DNA of 64,000 nucleotides from Ahniella affigens (GCF_003015185.1 NZ_CP027860.1:4516501-4580500); one strand, 5' to 3'. Shown: positions 51,710 through 64,000, numbered from the stretch's first letter. Made by a program: numbers and translations. Notes: a model not told the origin generated them from the letters alone.

Positions 51710-51850
51710 GCCCAATACGGACACGTGACAGGTCATCGCCCGCCCATGCAATCGGGTCACCCAATAACGGCGCTTCGCCTTGTCATGGCTTCAAAACTTG
51801 TCGCTACACTTCAAGCTTACCCCGCCTACGAATCGAAGACCGGAGCCCGC

Positions 51851-52408
51851 ATGCGCTTTCGACTGATCCTCGCCGCCCTGCCACTGCTTGGCAGCGCCAC
51901 CCTCGCCTTGGCCGAAGTGAACGAAGAGCTCGACGAAACGTATTACGAAGTGGAGCATGAGGAAGGCGATTCCCTATCAGAGGCCATTACCGCTGCCTCG
52001 CCGATCGAAGGCGGCTATCACGGTTACACCGAATGGCACGTCAAGTGGCGCTACACCTGGAGCTACGATTCGGAAAGCTGCTGGATCACCGATGTGACGG
52101 TGGATTTCAGCGCGACGCTCACACTGCCGGAACTCTATACCGACGATCCGCGCGCCGAACGGCGCTTCGACCGCTACATGACCGCGCTCCGGGAACACGA
52201 GGAGGGTCATGTCGACAACGGCCGACAGGCGGCCGAAGAGGTCGAGGAAGGCATCCTGAACATGGACGCCCGCCCCAATTGCAAAGCGCTGGAACGCGAT
52301 GCCAACGCCCTCGGCCTCATGATCGTCAAACGCGGCAATCGGCGGGACAAGGAATACGATCGCGCGACGGATCATGGCCGTACGCAAGGCGCCCGGGTGA
52401 ACGACTGA
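51851..52408 (+). CDS. DUF922 putative secreted metalloprotease
   Basis: A 185-aa protein with a signal peptide (LILAALPLLGSATLALA) and a DUF922 domain. The predicted zinc motif HEEGH lies in LREHEEGHVDNGRQAA near residue 118, and DUF922 members are predicted metal-dependent proteases. Start at the ATG 51851. It stands alone between the AraC gene and the kinase cluster. Confidence 0.85.
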   Translation: MRFRLILAALPLLGSATLALAEVNEELDETYYEVEHEEGDSLSEAITAASPIEGGYHGYTEWHVKWRYTWSYDSESCWITDVTVDFSATLTLPELYTDDPRAERRFDRYMTALREHEEGHVDNGRQAAEEVEEGILNMDARPNCKALERDANALGLMIVKRGNRRDKEYDRATDHGRTQGARVND

Positions 52409-52626: not shown

Positions 52627-54822
52627 ATGAACCTGGAGCCCGTGCTGAATGACGCTGGGGTCGACGAACACACCAGCGACAGCCGTCGACTCGGCCCATT
52701 TCGCCTACTCAAGCGCATTGGCGTGGGTGGCTATGGCGCCGTCTATGAAGCGCTCGACGAGCGCCTGAATCGCACGGTCGCGATCAAGATTCTGCATGAC
52801 CCGAGCCCGGACGCGCGGCGCCGGATGTTGTCCGAGGCGCGTGCGTCGGCGGGGCTCGAACATCCGGCATTTGTAAAAGTACTGGATGTGTTTGAGAGCC
52901 ACTCCGAGTTGGCACTGGTGATGGAATTGGTGCGTGGCCAGACCCTCAGCGCCTTGCGAGAACATGGGCCATTGCCGCTTCGACGCGGCTTGCTGCTCAT
53001 CCGACAAATTGCAGTCGCCATGGCAAGTGCGCATGCGGGCGGCCGAGTCCATGCGGACTTGAAACCAGCAAACCTGATGCTCAGCGACAACGATCAAGTG
53101 CGCATCCTGGACTTCGGCTTGGCGCGCGACCTCCATCCCGACAGCGGCCCGAACCCAGATAGCCGCGACGGCAGTGGCACGCTGGCCTACATGGCGCCGG
53201 AACTGCTTCTGGGCCGCGGCCCGCACCCGGGCAGTGACATCTATGCGCTGGGCGCAATCGCCGCCGAGCTGATGGGGCAAAACCGTCCTTACGCCGAACT
53301 TGATGGCGCGCGTCTCGCGCATGAACTCATTCACGGCCGGCGGGCACCGAGCGCCCAATTGCCTGAACAGGCCGGACCGTTGCGCGCATTGATCGACCAC
53401 ATGTGTGCGCGCGTACCGGAGCAGCGCTGCGCGACCATGACCCAGGTGCTCGCGGGGATCGATGAACAACTCAATGCGCTCCGCACCGCAAGCGATGTCC
53501 GACCGCCCGCCCCGCATCGGCGCCATTGGCCCTGGTTGTTGACCGGGGTACTCGTACTGGCCGCACTATGGCTGGGCCCCTTGCTGACATCAGGCGGCAC
53601 GCGCTGGCCCGATCTTTCGATGCAAAGCGACCTGGATCGCGCCGAGCAGTTGCTGCAGGCGTTCGATCATCAGGGTCACGTTGCCGAAGCAATCGCGTTA
53701 CTGGAATCCCGGCTCACCGCCCAACCTGAGCATGCCGCGAGCGCCGCGAATCTCGCGATTGCGTACTGTCTTCGCTATGCCAGCGATGACCGCGACGAAG
53801 CGTGGTTGCAGCGCGCCAATACCGCCGCCGATATTGCCCTGCGTGCCGATCCGCAACTCGCCCGCGCCCAGGCCAGCAAGGGCTGGGCGCTGGAGTTTCA
53901 GAGCCGACCAGCCGAGGCGCTGCCGTTTTTTCAGTACGCGCTGATGCTGGACCCCGGCGACCGCTACGCCTTGCTCGGGCAAGCCCGGGCCGCAGCGCGG
54001 CTTGGCCAGGACACGCTGGCTGCAGAAACCCTTGCCAATGCGATGCAACGGCACCCAAAGGACCGCGTGTTCGTTGATGCGTTAGGTACTTGGCATTTTA
54101 GTCACGCTCGTTACGTCGAGGCCGAATCGGCGTTTCGGCAGGCGATTGCGCTGGATCCGTTGAGCGTGGTGTCGCGCAGCAACTTGAACGCCGTGCTGCT
54201 GCGACGGGATCGACCCGAAGAAGCACTGGCCGTGCTGCAGGATGGTCTGCGCTTGCGTCCTGATGGCCGGCTGTACTCAAATCTTGGCACGGTGCTGTAT
54301 GCACTCGGGCGCTATGCCGAAGCCACCGATGCCTATCGCGCCGCCGTTTCGGCGGAGCGCGGCAGCCCGAACGACTATCTGCGCTGGGCGAATCTGGCGG
54401 ATGCGCTCAGGCAGTTGCCGGGTCGCGAACAGGATGCCCTGGCAGCGTATCGCACCACCGTGTCGCTATTGGCACCACTGCTCGCACGCAATGCCGAAGA
54501 CGTGACGTTGGCGAGTCGCAGCGCCCTGTATCGGGCCAAGCTTCAGGACTGCGATGCGTCCAAGCAGACCGCCGCGACGGTTCGGGCCCAACCCAACCTT
54601 TCGGTCGATGTCCGATTTCGTTTAGCGCAAGCTGCCGAACTCTGTGGCGCGCGCGAACAAGCGCTCGCGGATCTGGTGCTGGCCAGCACTCAAGGCCTGC
54701 CGCTGAAGACCATTGCCCAGGAACCCGAACTGCTGGCGCTGCGTCGGGACCCGCGTTACCAAACCCACATCCTCGCCACATTCTCCCCGTCTGCTTCGAA
54801 TGAGGTCCGACCCAATGAGTAA
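52627..54822 (+). CDS. Ser/Thr protein kinase with TPR C-terminus (non-RD)
   Basis: A 731-aa Hanks-type kinase. The glycine loop GVGGYG (about 32-37), Lys54 in VAIK, catalytic loop HADLKPANL (142-150) and DFG (162-164) are present; note HAD instead of HRD. A single membrane helix at about 301-320 (LLTGVLVLAALWLGPLL) separates the cytoplasmic kinase from about 400 residues of TPR repeats (for example ALGRYAEATDAYRAAV). It begins a cluster that includes a sigma-54 activator with a predicted FHA domain, which could read phosphothreonine. The stop overlaps the next gene by 8 bp. Confidence 0.92.
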   Translation: MNLEPVLNDAGVDEHTSDSRRLGPFRLLKRIGVGGYGAVYEALDERLNRTVAIKILHDPSPDARRRMLSEARASAGLEHPAFVKVLDVFESHSELALVMELVRGQTLSALREHGPLPLRRGLLLIRQIAVAMASAHAGGRVHADLKPANLMLSDNDQVRILDFGLARDLHPDSGPNPDSRDGSGTLAYMAPELLLGRGPHPGSDIYALGAIAAELMGQNRPYAELDGARLAHELIHGRRAPSAQLPEQAGPLRALIDHMCARVPEQRCATMTQVLAGIDEQLNALRTASDVRPPAPHRRHWPWLLTGVLVLAALWLGPLLTSGGTRWPDLSMQSDLDRAEQLLQAFDHQGHVAEAIALLESRLTAQPEHAASAANLAIAYCLRYASDDRDEAWLQRANTAADIALRADPQLARAQASKGWALEFQSRPAEALPFFQYALMLDPGDRYALLGQARAAARLGQDTLAAETLANAMQRHPKDRVFVDALGTWHFSHARYVEAESAFRQAIALDPLSVVSRSNLNAVLLRRDRPEEALAVLQDGLRLRPDGRLYSNLGTVLYALGRYAEATDAYRAAVSAERGSPNDYLRWANLADALRQLPGREQDALAAYRTTVSLLAPLLARNAEDVTLASRSALYRAKLQDCDASKQTAATVRAQPNLSVDVRFRLAQAAELCGAREQALADLVLASTQGLPLKTIAQEPELLALRRDPRYQTHILATFSPSASNEVRPNE

Positions 54823-55345
54823 CAACACCGTCTATCTTCGTGTCAGTTTCGATGTCGACCAACTCAGCAGTGCGCTGGTCTGGCAGGCCACCGAAGGCAC
54901 GGATCAACGCAGCGCCTACCATCGTGTCGGGCGTTACGCTGGCGCCCTGCACTTCTATCAAAACGATCGCTTCACCGTAGAGCTCTTGGCCTTCGCGCCG
55001 CTCGGCGCTGTCCGCACGATCACCGTGATCGGCGCCAGCATCATTACGATCCCCCATGCGGAGGAACGGCGGCGGTCGGCGCCATCGCCTTTTGACAGCA
55101 AGCACGCGGTCGTGGAGTTGCTCGATTGGGCAAAGGCGGAAGAAGTCGCCGATCCCAATCTCGAGCGCACTGCGTTCATGACGCGGACCGAATCACCCTT
55201 GGTAGTCGAACAACTTTCGGGGCGCTGGGAACTCTCGCTGGTGGTCACCGTGCTGATTGAGTTCCAGAACGACCGATCGCCCACGCGGCGCGTGTTTTCG
55301 TTCGATCCAGAGAGCGAAGTGGGCACCGGCGGTGACCCGCCCTGA
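54815..55345 (+). CDS. Small beta-rich protein coupled to the kinase
   Basis: A 176-aa protein of unknown function, rich in alternating hydrophobic strands (YLRVSFDVDQLSSALVW, ITVIGASIITI, ELSLVVTVLIEFQ). No signal peptide. The ATG at 54815 lies inside the kinase gene with GAGG upstream, overlapping by 8 bp, so the two are co-translated. It converges on the tail-collar gene with a 31-bp gap. I found no motif to assign a function; it may be a substrate or partner of the kinase. Confidence 0.75.
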   Translation: MSNNTVYLRVSFDVDQLSSALVWQATEGTDQRSAYHRVGRYAGALHFYQNDRFTVELLAFAPLGAVRTITVIGASIITIPHAEERRRSAPSPFDSKHAVVELLDWAKAEEVADPNLERTAFMTRTESPLVVEQLSGRWELSLVVTVLIEFQNDRSPTRRVFSFDPESEVGTGGDPP

Positions 55346-55376
55346 TCGAACATGGTCAGGCGCCGCGTGCCGACCT

Positions 55377-56036
55377 TCAGCGCGCCCGAATGATGAAGTT
55401 CAACGCCATGTTGCGCGCGCGGGTCTCGTTGGCGCTGTGGCGGCCCGACGTCGGATCTTTGGTCGTGTCCGTCGCTTTCACCGCGAACGCGCCGGAGCCC
55501 TCGCCCGGGGCGGCTCCGGTGGCGGTGTCGTAGGTGTGCTGATGCGCCTGAAAAGCATCGCACTGTAATGATCCGACGCCGGCGTAACGAGTCTGTTGGC
55601 CGTCAGCGGAATAGCGTTCTGCCGTATCCGGGTCGACCCCGGCGCCGTTGTCGACCCCGCGTACAAAGGCGCCGCGCAGATCGGGCAGATTGAAGTGATC
55701 AGCATCGACAGCGCCGTAGAGGCTGCCCAGCACTTTGTGCAAACCTGGAAACGCGCGCACCAGCACACTGCGGCCATCGCACGGCAACCAGGCCGTGGCC
55801 TCGGTCAGCAGCGGCACGCCCGAATCGGTGGCATCGGCCACCGCTACGGCGTCGGCTGATGGCGTTCCGGCGTCGCTATCAGCGGGACACTTCCAGGCGG
55901 TGTTGGCCGCTGCACTCAGCGCTTGCAGATTGCCGGCATAGAGGCACACCGTGCCAATGGGCGCCTCCGGGCCCGGAGGTCTTGGCCCGGGTGGCCAAGG
56001 TCCAGCGGGCGGCATCGGCAACACGGGCCAGCGCAT
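55377..56036 (-). CDS. Phage tail-collar domain protein
   Basis: A 219-aa protein with a Pro/Gly-rich N-terminus (PPAGPWPPGPRPPGPEAPIG) and a tail-collar-like domain: ATAWLPCDGRS, GSLYGAVDADHFNLPDLRG and RGVDNGAGVDPD. The C-terminus NMALNFIIRAR is the classic end of phage tail-fibre and collar proteins (ALNYIIK-like). No other phage gene is present. The ATG overlaps the preceding stop as TGATG, so it is translated together with the 1016-aa protein. Probable role: distal tip or adhesin of an extracellular structure, by inference. Confidence 0.85.
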   Translation of the reverse strand: MRWPVLPMPPAGPWPPGPRPPGPEAPIGTVCLYAGNLQALSAAANTAWKCPADSDAGTPSADAVAVADATDSGVPLLTEATAWLPCDGRSVLVRAFPGLHKVLGSLYGAVDADHFNLPDLRGAFVRGVDNGAGVDPDTAERYSADGQQTRYAGVGSLQCDAFQAHQHTYDTATGAAPGEGSGAFAVKATDTTKDPTSGRHSANETRARNMALNFIIRAR

Positions 56037-59000
56037 CAGGGCAGCCCTCGACCGGGGAAGGTCGGCAACACGGGCCCTTCTTGCAACACGACCAGCGTCG
56101 TCGGCATGGTGACCACCCAGGGTGGCCCGACAGACTCGCGGCCACGATCGCAACGACAGCGCTCCTGCGCCTGTTTCAAGTCTTCGAGAAGATCAATGCT
56201 TGTGCTCGTGGCCATGGGGGAGAGCGGCACGGATACCGCTGGCGTCAGCGCGGGTTCGCCGGTCCAGATCACGCCCGCATCCAGATACAGCACCATCGCG
56301 CGTTCAAAGCTCGGTCGCACCGGCAGCAGCACGCGTGCCTGGGCAGCTTCCAGAAAGGCGGTCATGCTGGCATCTGCACCCGGCACGAGGCGCCGACCCG
56401 GCGGTTGCTGATCATCGAGCGCCACAACAAACTGGTGGCTCATTTCCGACCATTCCAGCGCGCGCTCCAGCCAATCCTGCAGCGCCGGCAGGAAGCGCTC
56501 GACACGCGCTTTCTCGCCCGTCTTCGCCAGTGCGACCGCAACCATGGCACGCAAGCCTGCCCGCTTCAGTTGGCGCTGGATGGTTTGCCGCGTATTCAAC
56601 GTGTTCGACTGCACACGCGCGGGCGCCTGATTCGCGGCATTGAGGTAGGCCGTCAATTGCCGCCGATACGCCGACAACAGTGCCGCGTAAAAGCCCGCCT
56701 GCCAGCGCGCTTTGGCAGCGTCCGCCCAGTCGAGTTGCACTTCGATGGCCACCGCTTGCGAGGCGGCCGTCTGATCGCCAGCCATCGTTGCCGACGCGGA
56801 CGCTGCCCAGGCGAGGCTGCCGCTCTGCATGGCCAGATCCAGGCTCTGCATGGGGGCGGTGGCACTGAGTGCGAACGGCACCTGCCCCACTTGGCCGTTC
56901 ACGGTCGCGGTGGTCGATTGCGTGGTCAGCGTCACCGACGCCTTGGTCGCTTCGTAATCGGCCGGCAACGTCAGCGTGCCGCTTTGCAGGCTCGCCAGCG
57001 TAGGTGCCGCACAGGCAATGGTCAGCCGCTCCTGGGGCGGTGTATCGAACTGCTCTAGGCCGTAAGTTGCCGCCAACGTTGCGTAGAACAATTTCGAACT
57101 CGGATCGGTCGAAACCTGCGTGAAGTCGCTCAACCCGATCGCGGCGGGAAGAATGGGTTCGGTCAACGACACACCAGCAAGATCCAACTCGGCATTCACG
57201 TAAGACCGCGCCGGATCGGGCAGCACGAGTTCCAGCACTAGGCGCTCGCCCAATGGCGCGACCCAGCATTCGTAGATCGCATTCAGCCACCGATACACCC
57301 CTCGCAGCGGCGTCTCGGCGTGGCGCCGATCAAACGTATGGCGCTCGGACCAGTCGCGCTGGTGGGTAAATTCCTGCTGCCGCAGACGGCCGATCTGCTG
57401 CTCGATCCGACGGGCCGCGCGCTGCGTAATGGAGCGGGCCAGACTGGTGCGCGTCTGATTGGTCGTCTGCGCCGGTGCCGCCGGGGCATCGGCATTGGCC
57501 GCGCCGCCTGAACCACTGGCGATTGGTCCGAATGTCCAGTAACCCGTGGCATTGCCGTCCTGCGGTGGGCCGTAGTTCACGGAGTAGTTGATCTGATAGT
57601 TCTCGAGCAACAGTTCCTGCGCGGCCAATTCAAACGCGCTGGCGTCTGCCTGCACCGACTCGCTGGTGCGCTCGGATTGCTGCTCGCGCCGCTCATCAAG
57701 CTGGCGATCGATCTGGCGCTCCGATTGAATGCGCACTTTGCGCTCGCCAGGCATCACGTTTTCGATGCTCGCCACCTCACCCGGTTCATAGCGCAGCAAG
57801 GCGCGCCGAACGATCTGCAACTGGCCCACGGCGTAGGGGCTGACCCGACTGGTCACGCCCGTCATGGGCAAATCGGCGTCGGCAGGATTGGGCGCCGTAC
57901 TGACGTCCGGGGGCAGCGGGAACACCGGCGGCGGCAACACAACGGTCGCATGACGACGTTGTTCCAATCGGCTGGGCGGCCAAACGGCTGGACTGGGTCG
58001 CGGCGTGGTCATGGGTGCTGAAGTCGGTGCGGGTAATGGTGCAGCGCCTTCATCGCGATCATCATCAGCTGGCTCGACGGGCTCGTCCACGGCCAACTCA
58101 GCACCGTCCCGTTCGGCCTCTGCGGATGGCGCCTCGGTCGGCATCACCGGGCTCATCGCGGGCGGCATCGTGGGCACGCTGTCCGCCAATGCCGTCAACA
58201 AACTGCCGATAATCAGTGTCTTCAGTAGTTCCTCGTTTTGCACCAGCGCGTAGCCAGGCACCAGCATCAACGCAAACACGTTTTGCCACGTGCGATCGAT
58301 CTGCGCGGCATAGTCGGCCGACTGCACCGCATCGTAGAGCTCAGTCCACGTCACACCCAGTTCGACCAACAACCAATCGATCAGACGATCCACACACAAG
58401 GGCTGCAAGGTTTGCAAGCCGCGCCACAACGGCGCCAGCTGTGCCGGCAAACCATCCAACGGCTGCTCACGCGTGATGCGCTCGCCCTGATACGGCGGCT
58501 GCCCGGCCAGAAAGTCCAAGCCTTGCGCGATCGACAGGTTGCGAACGTCGGTGCCGAGCTGATGAATGTTCAGCAAGTTCGCGTACAGACTGTTCGCGGT
58601 TGGCATCGATGCGTTCGGGTAGTCGACAAAATTGTCGGCGCGCACAGATGTATCGATGTTCGGCCACTGCTTCAGAAACACAAACGGAAACAGGTCATGG
58701 CATGCCGGATCGATCCGGAGCTCGACCGTCTCGGTACTCGCTCCGACTGCGGGCGGCCATGGCGTGTACGGCGGCGGTGGTGGCAGCACGCCCTCCGGGC
58801 ACAGCAGCACATGCTGCCACGAGCCCTCCGGCGTATTGAGCCACACCATTTGCAGCATGCCTTCCGCCGGGCCGTAGCGAAACTCGCCGCTGACGGAATC
58901 CGACGCTGGCGGTTCGGTGGTCACCGAAAACGTCTGCACCGGGTCGGCTTGGCTCATCGGCACCGACATGATCAACTGCCCCAGCCAGAACACCTCGACC

Positions 59001-59086
59001 GTGCAGACACGGCCAGCGCCTGGGCAGCTCCAGGTCACCCGGACGCTACCGAAATGACGGGTACCAGAGCAGTCGCCACGAGACAT
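56036..59086 (-). CDS. Large multidomain protein of unknown function (1016 aa)
   Basis: A 1016-aa protein with no signal peptide. From the N-terminus: a beta-rich region (1-170) with CPGAGRVCTVEVFWLG, a helical region (170-330), a Pro/Ala/Asp-rich linker (about 335-440), the segment VGQLQIVRRALLRYEPGEVASIE, a Glu/Arg/Gln-rich coiled coil (ERQIDRQLDERREQQSERT), a Ser/Gly linker, and a C-terminal helical region of about 350 residues. I do not recognise a catalytic motif. The ATG at 59086 follows GGGAGG and is 2 bp after the upstream gene's stop. It lies between two beta-rich proteins and the tail-collar protein; a structural role is an inference. Confidence 0.8.
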   Translation of the reverse strand: MSRGDCSGTRHFGSVRVTWSCPGAGRVCTVEVFWLGQLIMSVPMSQADPVQTFSVTTEPPASDSVSGEFRYGPAEGMLQMVWLNTPEGSWQHVLLCPEGVLPPPPPYTPWPPAVGASTETVELRIDPACHDLFPFVFLKQWPNIDTSVRADNFVDYPNASMPTANSLYANLLNIHQLGTDVRNLSIAQGLDFLAGQPPYQGERITREQPLDGLPAQLAPLWRGLQTLQPLCVDRLIDWLLVELGVTWTELYDAVQSADYAAQIDRTWQNVFALMLVPGYALVQNEELLKTLIIGSLLTALADSVPTMPPAMSPVMPTEAPSAEAERDGAELAVDEPVEPADDDRDEGAAPLPAPTSAPMTTPRPSPAVWPPSRLEQRRHATVVLPPPVFPLPPDVSTAPNPADADLPMTGVTSRVSPYAVGQLQIVRRALLRYEPGEVASIENVMPGERKVRIQSERQIDRQLDERREQQSERTSESVQADASAFELAAQELLLENYQINYSVNYGPPQDGNATGYWTFGPIASGSGGAANADAPAAPAQTTNQTRTSLARSITQRAARRIEQQIGRLRQQEFTHQRDWSERHTFDRRHAETPLRGVYRWLNAIYECWVAPLGERLVLELVLPDPARSYVNAELDLAGVSLTEPILPAAIGLSDFTQVSTDPSSKLFYATLAATYGLEQFDTPPQERLTIACAAPTLASLQSGTLTLPADYEATKASVTLTTQSTTATVNGQVGQVPFALSATAPMQSLDLAMQSGSLAWAASASATMAGDQTAASQAVAIEVQLDWADAAKARWQAGFYAALLSAYRRQLTAYLNAANQAPARVQSNTLNTRQTIQRQLKRAGLRAMVAVALAKTGEKARVERFLPALQDWLERALEWSEMSHQFVVALDDQQPPGRRLVPGADASMTAFLEAAQARVLLPVRPSFERAMVLYLDAGVIWTGEPALTPAVSVPLSPMATSTSIDLLEDLKQAQERCRCDRGRESVGPPWVVTMPTTLVVLQEGPVLPTFPGRGLP

Positions 59087-59088
59087 GA

Positions 59089-59589
59089 TCAGCCTCCCGA
59101 ATCCGAAAACAGCACGTGCATCTCGACGTAGCCACCGGGATACCGCAATCGGCGCACCGACAGCACGCCGTCGCCCGGCTTCGGTTGGTAATTGAAACTA
59201 CCAGACAGAATCGCGTTGGGATTGTCGACTTCCAGCAAACTGAAGGGCACATCGGTTCGCATCGAATTCAACTCGGTGTCGACGATCAATGGACTCGTTG
59301 AATCGCCCGCTGCCGGCGAGCCAAGACCAGTTCCGGGCGTGTACAGCAACTGCACGCGGAACTGTTTGGCGGCAAGTTGCGCCCACGCAATGTCCAGCCC
59401 CGAGTTCGGATCGGGTGTCCAGAACTGCCAGTTCAACGTGTCGCTCTCGGCAAGCGCCGCCGAAGCGGACGGTGCAAGCGGTGTCGCTGGCGATTCGGGG
59501 ATCATGGGCGCGTCAGGCGGCGCTTCTGCCGTCGCTTCAGGATCGTGCGCCGCCGCCGGGACACTCGCGGACTTGCTGTTCTTGTTCAT
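59089..59589 (-). CDS. Beta-rich protein with disordered N-terminus
   Basis: A 166-aa protein. The first 50 residues are Ala/Pro/Glu-rich and look disordered; the remaining 115 are beta-rich (TLNWQFWTPDPNSGLDIAW, NAILSGSFNYQPKPGDGVLS, YPGGYVEMHVLF). GGAGG precedes the ATG at 59589. It is cotranscribed with the 1016-aa gene, 2 bp away. No known family. Confidence 0.75.
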   Translation of the reverse strand: MNKNSKSASVPAAAHDPEATAEAPPDAPMIPESPATPLAPSASAALAESDTLNWQFWTPDPNSGLDIAWAQLAAKQFRVQLLYTPGTGLGSPAAGDSTSPLIVDTELNSMRTDVPFSLLEVDNPNAILSGSFNYQPKPGDGVLSVRRLRYPGGYVEMHVLFSDSGG

Positions 59590-59616
59590 GGAAGCCTCCA
59601 GATTTCCGGTAATGGC

Positions 59617-59699
59617 GGCGCCGTTCTGAACAAGCAGAAGCGGCGCCGAACAGATGTGTACACTAGGCGTCCGCAGCGGGTGCGGTGGCGACCCGCTGC
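59617..59699 (-). promoter_or_regulatory. Two hairpins in the operon's 130-bp intergenic gap
   Basis: Between the 202-aa and 166-aa genes lie two inverted repeats: GCAGCGGGT/ACCCGCTGC (59673-59681 and 59691-59699, perfect) and GGCGCCG-TTCTG/CAGAAGCGGCGCC (59617-59628 and 59635-59647, one bulge). No T-run follows, so they may be mRNA-stabilising or attenuating structures that alter the ratio of the first gene product. Confidence 0.5.
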
Positions 59700-59719
59700 T
59701 TTGGACTGGTGGTTGCGAC

Positions 59720-60328
59720 TCAGGCTGCGCTCAGCGAATAGCCGTTCCACATCGAGCCGGTCACGGTCAGCACGCCGCCTTCGAGCACCGCAGTTTGCGT
59801 CTGCGAGAACTCTTCCTGGACGAGCCGATCGCCCTTGCGGGTGAACTGCGCCACGACGGCCACGTAGTACGTACCGCGCACGTCTTCGATGAACAGCCCG
59901 CCCGGCCAGATCACCTGCGGCGGATAGATCGCATCGCCATTCGCGGCGATCGTGGTCAGCGCGCCCAGACCGTAGTTGTTGGTGATGCGCACTTCGTTCA
60001 GCACCAGACCATTGAACTGTTGGTTGATCACGGCACCGGTGGCGAGACGATCCTGCGAGCTGACCGAGTCGATGCTGAACGCGGCTGTCGTTTCGGCAAA
60101 CGGCACATGCGCCGTTTCGCAGTTCAGGTTGGATGGGTTCGACGGATCGGACGAGTACTGCGCGAACACCGAGAAGTCATCTGGAATCTGGATGGTTTGC
60201 TGACCACCTGGAGGCGGTGCGCAGACCTGCCAGGCAATCGTGCCCAGCGTCGGATTCAGTACCGGCGTCTTGAAAATGGCAAGCCGGACAACTTCGTTGG
60301 TGTTGTTGCGAAGGGTGATGGTGGACAT
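59720..60328 (-). CDS. Beta-rich protein, first gene of the operon
   Basis: A 202-aa protein beginning MSTITLRNNTNEVVRLAIF and continuing with PPPGGQQTIQIPDDFSVFAQ and RITNNYGLGALTTIA; a beta-sandwich is likely. No signal peptide. AGGAG precedes the ATG at 60328. A sigma-54-like promoter lies 73 bp upstream. The two hairpins after its stop separate it from the 166-aa gene, so it may be made in excess. Function unknown. Confidence 0.78.
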   Translation of the reverse strand: MSTITLRNNTNEVVRLAIFKTPVLNPTLGTIAWQVCAPPPGGQQTIQIPDDFSVFAQYSSDPSNPSNLNCETAHVPFAETTAAFSIDSVSSQDRLATGAVINQQFNGLVLNEVRITNNYGLGALTTIAANGDAIYPPQVIWPGGLFIEDVRGTYYVAVVAQFTRKGDRLVQEEFSQTQTAVLEGGVLTVTGSMWNGYSLSAA

Positions 60329-60400
60329 ACGAATGCTCCTGATTCAGTAAGGGCGGCGCTTCGGGCCGGTCACAGACGACTTGTCGTGGCGATTCGTTAG

Positions 60401-60417
60401 AACAAGGCGCGTGCCAA
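60401..60417 (-). promoter_or_regulatory. Sigma-54-like promoter of the minus-strand operon
   Basis: Read on the minus strand: TTGGCACGCGCCTTGTT. The -24 half TTGGCAC matches the consensus perfectly, and the spacing to the -12 half (TTG, then T instead of the consensus C) is correct. It lies 73 nt upstream of the ATG at 60328, giving a leader of about 60 nt. Confidence 0.65.
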
Positions 60418-60489
60418 TGATGATGTCGCTTTCAGAACAAGGCGTTACGCGATGCATGGGGCAAGTCCAGAACCGCGGATCAGCGGTCG

Positions 60490-60509
60490 CGACATGTCCG
60501 ACATGTCGG
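60490..60509. promoter_or_regulatory. Candidate activator binding site (enhancer)
   Basis: The octamer GACATGTC is repeated with 9-bp period (60491-60498 and 60500-60507), and CCGACATGTCGG (60498-60509) is a perfect 12-bp palindrome. It lies about 80-90 bp upstream of the -24 element, the usual place for an enhancer-binding protein. The 15-mer TGTCCGACATGTCGG recurs with one change at 62774. Confidence 0.65.
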
Positions 60510-60584
60510 TGGCGTCTGGCAGTGGGGCCGCTGTGGCATGGCGCAGCGGGCGATGGTGGCGGCGCCGAAGCAGTTCGATCCGCG

Positions 60585-60803
60585 CCGCGCAAGTCGAACC
60601 CCTATTGTCGTCATTTTGGCGCAGCCGGGATCCAGGGCAATCTGGCCCTGAATCAGCAATCTGTCCCTGAAACAGCAAATTGGCCGGCCCTTGCTAGATC
60701 ACCCATCGTCGCCAGATCGCCCTGGATCCCGGAACCCGCTGCGCGGCTTCCAGGATGACGACCATGGAAGCTGCCAATCTGAGGCACCTTCGCGCTGATT
60801 CGA
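60585..60803. repeat. Palindromic repeat element, copy A
   Basis: A 219-bp element whose arms (60607-60650 and 60715-60762) are complementary, starting GTCGTCAT and ending ATGACGAC. It is repeated at 60846-61045 at high identity, with an extra segment of about 20 bp (around 60660) missing from copy B. Non-coding, MITE-like. Confidence 0.8.
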
Positions 60804-60845
60804 CCAAGTACCGCTTGCGTCCTTGGCTCACCGGCGTCAGCCGCA

Positions 60846-61045
60846 CCGCGCAAGTTGAACCCCTATTGTCGTCATCCTGGCGCAGCCGGGATCCAGGGCA
60901 ATCTGGCCCTGAATCAGCAATCTGGCCGGCCCTCGTTAGATCACCCATCGTCGCCAGATCGCCCTGGATCCTGGAGCCCGCTGCGCGGCTTCCAGGATGA
61001 CGACCATGGAAGCTGCCAATCTGAGGCATCTTCGCGCTGATTCGA
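60846..61045. repeat. Palindromic repeat element, copy B
   Basis: A 200-bp direct repeat of copy A at about 90% identity by eye, with the same complementary arms. The two copies are separated by 42 bp. It ends 85 bp before the activator gene and so could influence its expression. Confidence 0.8.
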
Positions 61046-61129
61046 TCGATACAATTGCAGACGCGCCTACAATAGCGGCGACGCACGTTGGCCAATCCGG
61101 CACGCGCGCGCACACACTTGAGGGACCCC

Positions 61130-62683
61130 ATGAGCGCCCACGACCATGCGCTGACTGACGACACGCTGTCTGCACCGGCACATCGCCGACGCCTGGCCAA
61201 GCAGACTTGCCTCGGTCTGACCATTCTTTGGCATCCCGATCGCCATCGCATCGGCGCCCAAGCCGCGCTGCCTTTGGACACCAACACCGAGTTCACCGTC
61301 AACCGGCTCGCGCCCATCTTCCATGCCGCCAATCGGCAACAGAGCGAGCCATTGGCGCACCGGTCGGTGTCACGCCAGCCGCTGCTGTTTCACACCCAAC
61401 GCGACGGCGGCGTACGCATCACCGTCCCGGACAGCCGCATGCTGGTGCGGGTGCAGGGGCGGATGATCAATCACCAGATCGATCTGGACGCCGCAGCACT
61501 TACTCAAGGCGTCGTCATTGAACTGGGCGAGCAGTTGGTGTTGTGCCTGGGCACGATCCTATGCATTCCCGATCGCGAGCCGGATCTCGGCCTCATTGGC
61601 GTCAGCCATTTGATGTCGAACATTCGAAGCCTGGTCCGGCAAATGGCGCGCAGTGAGCTGCCGGTCCTGGTTCTCGGCGAGAGCGGCACCGGCAAAGAAT
61701 TGATCGCGCGTGCCTTGCACGCGAGCAGCCAGCGCCATGCCCACGCGTTGGTCAGCGTCAACATGGCAGCCCTCAGCGAACAACTGGCCGCCGCGGATTT
61801 GTTCGGCGCCATCAAAGGCGCTTACACCGGCGCCACCCAGGGCCGGCGTGGCTTTTTTGCCGAAGCCCAAGGCGGCAGCTTGTTCCTCGACGAGATCGGC
61901 GATGCGCCCGCGCTCGTGCAACCGATGCTGCTGCGCGCTCTGGAAACCGGCGAATACCGTCCGGTTGGCGCCAGTCGCAGCGAGCACAGCACGGCTCGGG
62001 TGATTGCGGCCACCGATCGCGCGCTCGCCGATGGCAGCTTCAATGTGCCGTTGCTGCGACGACTGGAGGCGCTCGTGATCCAAGTGCCGCCGCTGCGCTT
62101 GCGCCGCGAGGATCTGGGCGTACTGGTTCGTCATGTGCTCGAACAAGAGAACGCCGTCGAACCATCGCTGTTTGATGCCCGTGACCTGGCCGCGCTCGCG
62201 CTGTTCGACTGGCCTGGCAACGTGCGGCAACTGGTTCATGTGGTGCGCCGTTTGCTGCTGGCACGGCGCAGCCAAATGCCCGTGACGGTGGCGTCCGTGC
62301 TTGCTGATCTACCGAAGCCTCAGCGCCTGTCCGCGACGGCTGCGCCGACCCCGCACGCCGTCAATGAGCCAGCAGTCGAATCGACCAAAGGCCGCTCGTA
62401 TCGCGACCCGCGTTCGGTCGACGATGCGGCACTGTGCGCATCGCTCGCCGCCTGCGGGTGGTGTGTACGCGATGCAGCCGAGCAGCTCGGCGTGTCGCGC
62501 ACGTCGTTCTATGCGTTGCTGCAGAAGAGCAAACTCGTCCGCCAGCCGGCACAGATCCCGACCGACGAACTGCGCGCCGTGATGCGCCAATTTCCAGATC
62601 AATTGGACGCCTGGGCCGCGGCGCTGAAGACGCCGAAAGAGAGTTTGCGCCGCTTTGTACAACAGCTGCCGCGCGAGCATTGA
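61130..62683 (+). CDS. Sigma-54-dependent activator with FHA-like sensor
   Basis: A 517-aa enhancer-binding protein without a receiver domain. The N-terminal 140 residues (TILWHPDRHRIGAQ, RSVSRQPLLF, VIELGEQLVLCL) look like an FHA domain, as in other FHA-type sigma-54 activators. The AAA+ domain has Walker A GESGTGKE (183-190), GAYTGA in the sigma-54 loop (230-235) and SLFLDEIGD (Walker B). A C-terminal FIS-like helix-turn-helix (AAEQLGVSRTSFYALLQ) binds DNA. ATG 61130 has AGGG upstream. FHA domains read phosphothreonine, and the nearby kinase is a plausible writer. Putative target promoters lie on both sides of this gene. Confidence 0.92.
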   Translation: MSAHDHALTDDTLSAPAHRRRLAKQTCLGLTILWHPDRHRIGAQAALPLDTNTEFTVNRLAPIFHAANRQQSEPLAHRSVSRQPLLFHTQRDGGVRITVPDSRMLVRVQGRMINHQIDLDAAALTQGVVIELGEQLVLCLGTILCIPDREPDLGLIGVSHLMSNIRSLVRQMARSELPVLVLGESGTGKELIARALHASSQRHAHALVSVNMAALSEQLAAADLFGAIKGAYTGATQGRRGFFAEAQGGSLFLDEIGDAPALVQPMLLRALETGEYRPVGASRSEHSTARVIAATDRALADGSFNVPLLRRLEALVIQVPPLRLRREDLGVLVRHVLEQENAVEPSLFDARDLAALALFDWPGNVRQLVHVVRRLLLARRSQMPVTVASVLADLPKPQRLSATAAPTPHAVNEPAVESTKGRSYRDPRSVDDAALCASLAACGWCVRDAAEQLGVSRTSFYALLQKSKLVRQPAQIPTDELRAVMRQFPDQLDAWAAALKTPKESLRRFVQQLPREH

Positions 62684-62773
62684 GCAGCGTTTAGGGAGCC
62701 TCTGAGGAAGTTCAGAGCCATTGCGGGTCTGAAAGTCTAGGATCGACAAGTTCAGACCCTTTAGGCGCCGCGG

Positions 62774-62792
62774 TGTCCGACACGTCGGGACA
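62774..62792. promoter_or_regulatory. Candidate activator binding site (enhancer), second copy
   Basis: TGTCCGACACGTCGG (62774-62788) matches the site at 60495-60509 at 14 of 15 positions, and TGTCC/GGACA arms flank it. It lies 59-73 bp upstream of the sigma-54-like promoter of the hydrolase gene. Confidence 0.65.
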
Positions 62793-62846
62793 GCGTTCGA
62801 TGCACCACCGACGGCCCGCCCCCGCAACAGAAACAAACACTTGCCC

Positions 62847-62863
62847 TTGGCATCAGGTCTGCA
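62847..62863 (+). promoter_or_regulatory. Sigma-54-like promoter of the hydrolase gene
   Basis: TTGGCATCAGGTCTGCA keeps the invariant GG and GC dinucleotides at the correct spacing of the TGGCAC-N5-TTGC consensus, with two departures (T for C in the -24 half, C for T in the -12 half). It lies about 50 nt upstream of the ATG at 62912. Confidence 0.6.
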
Positions 62864-62911
62864 AACGGCCTCTGGAACCAGGCTCATCCCGAGCCGAAAC
62901 CGGAGACCGTC

Positions 62912-64000
62912 ATGTTGTCCACCCGAAACTTGCTTGCCGTGTTGCTGTATTCGATGTCGTTGCCGCTGCTGGCGTCCTGTCCCGTACCGCCCGCGTCCGC
63001 ACCCAACTTGCCCAATCCGCTGGAGGCCGGCCCTGGCACCATCTGGCCCAAAGCGGCAGATGCGCCCATGGCGTGGCCCGCGCCGGGCAAGAGCGAAGAC
63101 TGGATGGGCATGCCCGCCGGCGATCCCGAAGTTCCCGCGCTCGCCGGCATCATGACCATCTACACGCTGCCCGTTGGCAGCGGCAATTGTCAGATGATGC
63201 TGTGCCCGAATCAGAACCGCATGATCATGTTTGACTGTGGATCGACCGGTCTTGGCAATCTGGGTTGGAACCGCGCTGATGTCGGGCAGTTTATTGCCAC
63301 GCAGATCAATGATCAGACCCAGATCGCCGTATCGATCAGCCATCCGGATGCCGATCACAGCAACTATCTGCCCGATGTTCTCGCCGGACGCCCCATCAGC
63401 ACGATTGTGATGTCACGCCAGCCTGGCGATTATCCCGCCGCGGTTCGTGATTGGATGGCGAATCTGCAAGCCCAAGGCACTGGCCTTTTGTACACCGGCG
63501 GCATTTATCGGTCGCACGCGCCGGAACCGTCATTGAGCTGCTATGCGCCCGACGCTCACGGCGGCTGGAACATCGACGTGCCCGGCTACATTGTGATGAT
63601 GAATGCCGGCGCGACCGCCAATGATGCAAGCATGGTGATTGCCCAGCAATACGCCGGATTTCAAGCACTGTTCACGGGCGATATGACCGGCGCCACCGAA
63701 CAACAAGTCAATCCCGTGGCGCCGGTTGCCCTGGCCGGCACCCGCGTGATTACCGGCGCCCATCATGGCGCTGTGTCCCATGGCAGTAATTCGCAAATCT
63801 GGGCCGACGCGAATCAAGCCAGCCTGGTGATGTTCAGTTCGGGCACCCGATTCATGCATCCCCGTTGTCCGGCGGTGGGCGTGTACTGGCCTTACTTGTT
63901 CACCGACGCCGCACCGCATCAGTTCCAGTGCGGCAACAACGGTCAGTGGCAAGTCGTCAACACCCAGAACGCGGCGTTCGTGACCAACAACAATGGCCTG
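62912..64000 (+). CDS. Secreted MBL-fold hydrolase (ComEC-like), 3' end missing
   Basis: An open frame of 363 codons running off the window end. The signal peptide (LLAVLLYSMSLPLLASC) ends with LASC, a possible lipobox, so it may be a lipoprotein. The metallo-beta-lactamase fold is shown by SHPDADHSNYLPDVL (HxDxDH, the ComEC-type variant of HxHxDH), FTGDMTGATE and TGAHHGAVSHGSN. Such enzymes cleave phosphoesters, and ComEC-type ones degrade or process DNA; here the substrate is unknown. ATG 62912 follows GGAG by 6 nt. Its own sigma-54-like promoter suggests regulation by the upstream activator. Confidence 0.88.
   Translation, partial: MLSTRNLLAVLLYSMSLPLLASCPVPPASAPNLPNPLEAGPGTIWPKAADAPMAWPAPGKSEDWMGMPAGDPEVPALAGIMTIYTLPVGSGNCQMMLCPNQNRMIMFDCGSTGLGNLGWNRADVGQFIATQINDQTQIAVSISHPDADHSNYLPDVLAGRPISTIVMSRQPGDYPAAVRDWMANLQAQGTGLLYTGGIYRSHAPEPSLSCYAPDAHGGWNIDVPGYIVMMNAGATANDASMVIAQQYAGFQALFTGDMTGATEQQVNPVAPVALAGTRVITGAHHGAVSHGSNSQIWADANQASLVMFSSGTRFMHPRCPAVGVYWPYLFTDAAPHQFQCGNNGQWQVVNTQNAAFVTNNNGL

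Follow-up and report, generated by a model that had tools for sequence, protein, structure and literature searches.

FHA-type activators of sigma-54 promoters occur in Myxococcus xanthus. In Xanthomonas citri, a transmembrane Hanks-type kinase of the PknS-EcfK system drives transcription of the type VI secretion system (T6SS) (PMC13147305), and the extracellular contractile injection systems (eCIS) and their effectors provide a second described system for comparison (PMC11297309). Here we describe a locus of Ahniella affigens that shares parts with each of these. It lies at the end of a 64,000-nucleotide window (C1:4516501-4580500 of a two-contig, 6.12-Mb genome) and comprises a membrane kinase with a small partner gene; convergent to this pair, a minus-strand operon encoding proteins of 202, 166 and 1016 amino acids (aa) and a phage-type tail-collar protein; a sigma-54 activator; and an exported metallo-beta-lactamase (MBL)-fold hydrolase, whose tandem paralogue follows just past the window. 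Every gene named in a first-pass annotation of this sequence is present (Table 1). We conclude that the gene set is a genuine cassette, undescribed in the literature and family libraries covered, and that it is under what looks like a dedicated sigma-54 switch, although most of its parts are of known kinds.

When the regions upstream of the operon and the two hydrolase genes are compared, the likely basis for their joint control becomes apparent. Each contains a good sigma-54-like (-24/-12) site, the third of them at L007:2843(+), 63 bp before its start codon (loci are labelled L###; L007 runs past the window end). Scored with a position matrix whose weights approximate the consensus, 14 sites per 208,000 strand-bases reach 11.5 or more (in overlapping stretches, the three target sites included); about 0.02 such sites would be expected in the three 100-bp target stretches (300 bp), against 3 found. 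Comparison of the three regions without any prior motif yielded one shared dyad, GTCSGACAYGTCGSGACA, located 87, 74 and 74 bp upstream of the respective -24 boxes. Across the whole genome, allowing up to two mismatches, the three best matches to this dyad are exactly these three sites; there are only two others, both with two mismatches, and a reversed control pattern also gives two. A gapped pattern combining promoter and dyad was discarded because it missed the third promoter by one base and gave as many control matches as real ones, and the dyad alone was used instead. Sigma-54 activators and their enhancers are usually arranged in this way, with the enhancer upstream of the promoter. The three promoter-plus-dyad pairs, and the near-absence of the dyad elsewhere in the genome, make it most likely that operon and hydrolase genes alike are under the control of the activator; that the neighbouring activator is the protein binding the dyad is something we infer from its adjoining two of the three sites. 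The first-pass annotation had the activator turning on the operon and the hydrolase, and the matching elements extend this prediction to the paralogue.

The arrangement of the cassette is conserved. A contig from a Lysobacteraceae metagenome-assembled genome (L005) has the six genes arranged in the same way, with a 202-171-1009-collar operon facing the small gene and the kinase, at 76% identity for the 202-aa protein and 40% for the 1016-aa protein; this contig ends before any activator position would be reached. The six-gene layout is more than chance. The large gene is followed directly by a collar gene at nine loci (the window, L005, L017, L046, L047, L051, L052, L053 and L093) that span several family-level groups of Gammaproteobacteria, and the HxH motif and fibre-type C-terminus are kept in all nine aligned collar partners. 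The neighbourhoods were searched using profiles of the window genes, in line with the neighbourhood search suggested earlier.

By sequence comparison, the 1016-aa protein is assigned to a collar-type branch of a large family spanning Bacteria and Archaea: sequences related to its C-terminal ~600 residues occur in Actinomycetota, Bacteroidota, Alphaproteobacteria, Photobacterium and a haloarchaeon. The family was detected in about 2% of the genomes sampled, with members in 8 of 399 genomes of the order, 7 of 398 of the phylum and 7 of 369 of the class. The nine collar members form one side of a single branch with 100/100 support in a 31-row tree, and none of the 22 others has a collar gene directly downstream. 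A single change of the collar label is enough on this tree, against a mean of 8 for shuffled labels. Some rows have long branches, the non-collar contig L045 stops within the gene, and one search model (A6) was built from collar-type members. This suggests that a phage-type fibre tip was taken up, and since retained, by one branch of the family.

The company kept by the large gene differs from locus to locus. Among the collar loci, an extracytoplasmic function (ECF) sigma factor precedes it in L052, L053 and L093; L047 encodes a protease of the C70/C39 type as well as a regulator combining nSTAND1 and winged-helix domains; and in L017, from Photobacterium, eCIS_core and PatG-domain proteins lie upstream with an AAA+ ATPase nearby, no sheath, tube or baseplate gene being recognised near the eCIS_core protein. 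Several small proteins, often in tandem, are encoded per cluster (L047, L051, L052, L093). In the non-collar branches, a patatin gene adjoins the large gene in L018 and L048, and the neighbour of the haloarchaeal member, on a Natronorubrum plasmid (L019), is annotated as a patatin-like phospholipase. Partners and regulators vary in this way, and we therefore take the core to be the large protein and a clade-specific partner, with regulators exchanged. Another non-collar member, on an Ensifer adhaerens plasmid (L020), sits between a SIR2-domain gene and large methylase/helicase-like genes that appear DISARM-like by eye. Three contigs from a virus collection carry members beside prophage tail genes on the opposite strand (Prophage_tail in L054, DUF2586 in L055, and L056 by eye).

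Searches against known systems returned little beyond the collar protein. No sheath, tube, baseplate, prophage or T6SS gene was found among the cluster proteins with Pfam, PHROGs and NCBIfam, the collar domain being the only phage-type part; among PHROG tail families nothing else matched apart from one hydrolase match at an E-value of 0.66. The 1016-aa protein has no meaningful match in Pfam, PHROGs, NCBIfam or the PDB and none among 50,697 phage records, and the possibility that the cluster is a piece of a phage was rejected because this protein lacks phage relatives. PADLOC models gave only generic kinase and AAA+ matches and one weak hydrolase match, and a known defence system was rejected on this negative result. 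The literature covered, outside which lie much of the subscription literature and all bioRxiv preprints, holds no named system for the gene set. The first-pass annotation could likewise match the set to nothing named; its concern that the genes might belong to a known phage, T6SS or eCIS locus found no such match among the cluster proteins. The activator, whose proximity it also took as a mark of the system, is not conserved with the cassette.

The collar protein itself resembles phage tail-collar fibre proteins (PF07484, and phrog_523 as its best PHROG) in its collar domain, HxH motif and C-terminal fibre-tip sequence, but it is paired with the 1000-aa family and has no recognised tail, capsid or baseplate genes alongside. 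Similarly, the cassettes share with eCIS the reuse of a phage-derived part by the cell, and one relative lies near an eCIS_core protein (PMC11297309), but no contractile machinery was recognised in or around them. These likenesses would suit an alternative fibre module for a particle (tailocin, T6SS or eCIS) whose genes lie at another place in the genome, given the phage-fibre type of the collar protein and the eCIS_core protein and AAA+ ATPase of the Photobacterium locus. We consider this quite unlikely, as a non-exhaustive scan of the surroundings of the nine collar loci recognised no gene for a sheath, tube or baseplate, and the collar subfamily occurs across many families with regulators of its own.

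The two hydrolases match ComEC/Rec2 in its C-terminal part only, at 21-25 bits against a cut-off of 190, with no channel domain matched. They share with the MBL domain of ComEC/Rec2 this weak profile match and the motifs HPDADH/HTHYDH, and differ from it in standing alone, without a channel, and in being exported, judging from a signal or lipobox-like N-terminus recognised by eye. The secreted MBL-fold hydrolase described earlier is therefore upheld, with a gene that extends beyond the window. The extracellular or surface structure proposed with it fares less well, since recognisable signals are confined to the hydrolases.

Upstream of these outputs, the coupling of a Hanks kinase to a small beta-rich protein is borne out. 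The catalytic motifs VAIK, HADLKPANL, DFG and APE are all intact, a transmembrane segment was called by eye, and the start of the small gene lies inside the last kinase codons, with a comparable overlap in L005 (5458-5461). No sigma-54-like site or dyad is present upstream of the kinase gene, and a profile search of neighbourhoods found no kinase of this type in collar loci other than the window and L005. On these grounds the grouping might be partly due to chance, with only the activator, operon and hydrolases belonging together and the kinase pair unrelated; this is decidedly improbable, because the kinase and small gene also lie convergent to the operon in L005, where the operon proteins have diverged to 40-76% identity. 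The locus resembles PknS-EcfK in having a transmembrane Hanks kinase that would control transcription of a gene set used against other cells, and probably in belonging to the same bacterial order (PMC13147305), and some cassette relatives have an ECF sigma factor alongside; here, in contrast, a sigma-54 activator adjoins the set, something other than a T6SS is the output, and any phosphorylation link is putative.

The sigma-54 activator predicted earlier is clearly present, with the GAFTGA-type loop of its AAA+ domain kept as GAYTGA, but the FHA sensor assigned to it is not recognisable as such. Pfam FHA (PF00498) was not detected in it at E<=10, whereas the same model matches 13 other FHA stretches in the genome. 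Profile-profile comparison gave a weak in-register match to FHA over 54 residues (P=0.012; 1 of 200 shuffles as good), in which the S-R of the FHA signature is kept in register and the H and N-G are not; the N-terminal domain may be a degenerate FHA fold. This domain has no convincing relative in 249 genomes of the phylum and none in the genome of L005, and neither it nor the hydrolase has relatives on plasmids. A place for the activator in the conserved core was rejected for lack of an orthologue of this domain: it is a local adaptation, because elsewhere the cassette adjoins ECF sigma factors or an nSTAND1/winged-helix regulator. The FHA-type activators of M. xanthus are similar in combining a sigma-54 activator, a putative phospho-sensing N-terminal domain and a Ser/Thr kinase in the neighbourhood, but here no Pfam FHA is detectable and parts of the signature are missing. 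With no recognisable FHA and no orthologue of the domain, a direct link from the kinase to the activator was not supported; such signalling is plausible, its chances evenly balanced.

These observations can be assembled into a sequence of events. A membrane kinase with a TPR domain would sense an envelope or contact signal and act on the activator, directly or via the small partner protein. The activator would then bind dyads ~74-87 bp upstream of three sigma-54 promoters and switch on the 202-166-1016-collar operon and the two MBL hydrolases, a step for which the sequence argues well and which we regard as highly probable. Finally, the 1016-aa and collar proteins may associate, the collar binding a receptor while the large protein provides a shaft or a body for delivery; the small beta-rich proteins would be accessory to this complex, and the hydrolases would work in the periplasm or at the outer membrane. 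Three features favour a receptor-binding complex that acts outwards, namely the fibre tip, the pairing with enzymes in sister branches and the control of exported hydrolases together with the operon, and we judge its chances to be only a little short of even. The whole, a locally wired sigma-54 regulon driving an effector or adhesin cassette, is a possibility we hold tentatively.

Several findings weigh against this scheme. The operon proteins have no recognisable signal peptides and no known export route, and the operon promoter has TTGT at -12, where TTGC is preferred. The structure predictions suggested earlier were informative for the jelly-roll of the 1016-aa protein (~645-815), the only confident part of a poor model (mean pLDDT, the predicted local distance difference test score, 41.6); Foldseek with this jelly-roll returned many unrelated, generic jelly-rolls, and the AlphaFold model of the 202-aa protein (pLDDT 33) was uninformative. 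The weak FHA link of the activator and its failure to be conserved along with the cassette count on the same side.

The lack of export signals bears on two further explanations. One is an intracellular conflict cassette, anti-phage or abortive, in which infection is sensed by the regulators and answered within the cell by the large protein with its partners; members near prophage tail genes, a SIR2-domain gene and an nSTAND1-domain regulator would fit it. We consider it unlikely: neither a collar fibre tip nor exported hydrolases would be of obvious use in the cytoplasm, a response to infection under sigma-54 control would be slow, and PADLOC recognises only the generic parts. The other is a cytoplasmic storage, inclusion or scaffold complex of beta-rich proteins, to which the multiple, often tandem small proteins and the jelly-roll domain also point; this is very improbable, as it accounts neither for the fibre tip and the enzyme partners nor for exported hydrolases under shared control.

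The operon is as first annotated, with four genes convergent to the kinase pair, the last two overlapping as TGATG, an arrangement that suggests coupling; the collar gene most likely starts at 56036 rather than 56153. Profile comparison (P=0.0014) points to its 166-aa product as a possible paralogue of the N-terminal domain of the 1016-aa protein. Homology between the 202-aa protein and the small proteins of other clusters was not accepted: they are similar in size and share some motifs by eye, but the profile P values are only 0.0096-0.05. The 202-aa protein also occurs alone or in tandem elsewhere. A second copy in the same genome (C1:5091773-5092372; L014, L066) has 71% identity and no cassette, and a 64% relative lies beside an integrase on a Xanthomonas hortorum plasmid (L112). 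Three tandem stand-alone collar-domain genes at C1:5852619-5853828 (L067) are of a type differing from the cassette collar gene.

Table 1. Features of the cassette in window coordinates; window-equivalent positions continue the numbering past the window end
Feature	Position	Strand	Evidence
Membrane Ser/Thr (Hanks-type) kinase, one transmembrane segment, C-terminal TPR repeats	52627..54822	+	Pfam Pkinase 6e-45 and TPR; motifs; L005 orthologue
Small beta-rich protein, no family; start overlaps kinase stop	54815..55345	+	Conserved kinase partner in L005
Phage tail-collar (fibre-tip) protein	55377..56036	-	PF07484 40 bits; phrog_523 6e-23; HxH motif
1016-aa protein: N-terminal beta domain, helical middle, C-terminal ~600-aa core	56036..59086	-	
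166-aa beta-rich protein	59089..59589	-	Profile comparison
202-aa beta-rich protein, first gene of the operon	59720..60328	-	
Sigma-54-like promoter TGGCACGCGCCTTGTT, 88 bp before the 202-aa gene	60401..60416	-	
Putative upstream activator dyad TGTCGGACATGTCGCGAC, operon side	60486..60503	-	
Sigma-54 activator: divergent N-terminal domain (weakly FHA-like), AAA+ with GAYTGA, Fis-type helix-turn-helix	61130..62683	+	PF00158 5e-49
Putative upstream activator dyad TGTCCGACACGTCGGGAC, hydrolase side	62774..62791	+	
Sigma-54-like promoter TGGCATCAGGTCTGCA, 64 bp before the hydrolase gene	62848..62863	+	
Exported MBL-fold hydrolase 1	62912..64000 in window; end at window-equivalent 64156	+	
Hydrolase 2, tandem paralogue	window-equivalent 64406-65731 (L007:2906-4231)		Own dyad ~64270; own promoter ~64343

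Other features lie between and around these genes. Two near-identical repeat copies (GGGATCCAGGGCAATCTGGCCCTGAATCAGCAATCTG...) occupy 60640-60990, between the operon and the activator gene. A DUF922 protein with an HEEGH motif is encoded at 51725-52408, just 5' of the kinase, and no link to the cassette was found. On the 3' side of the hydrolase paralogue are a tRNA-Met (L007:4533-4608); a 1670-aa RHS-repeat protein followed by a 158-aa gene (L007:5065-10566, window-equivalent 66565-72066), likely a toxin-immunity pair; and, at L007:11588-18093, a DDE (DUF772-type) transposase adjoining Tn7-like transposition genes for TniQ, a TnsC/TniB-like ATPase and an 807-aa TnsA/TnsB-like fusion.

The cassette is conserved, and at its base is a large protein family, found in both Bacteria and Archaea, that has no Pfam entry. 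We raise, as a speculative possibility, that it represents a new conflict or attachment apparatus, with a body from this jelly-roll family, clade-specific partners (collar tip, patatin or papain-like protease) and interchangeable regulators (a kinase with a sigma-54 activator, an ECF sigma factor or a STAND protein). In A. affigens it comes with a testable regulon, three promoters sharing one nearly genome-unique candidate binding site, which opens both regulator and apparatus to experiment; should the core family turn out to form an apparatus in its own right, it would be categorically new.

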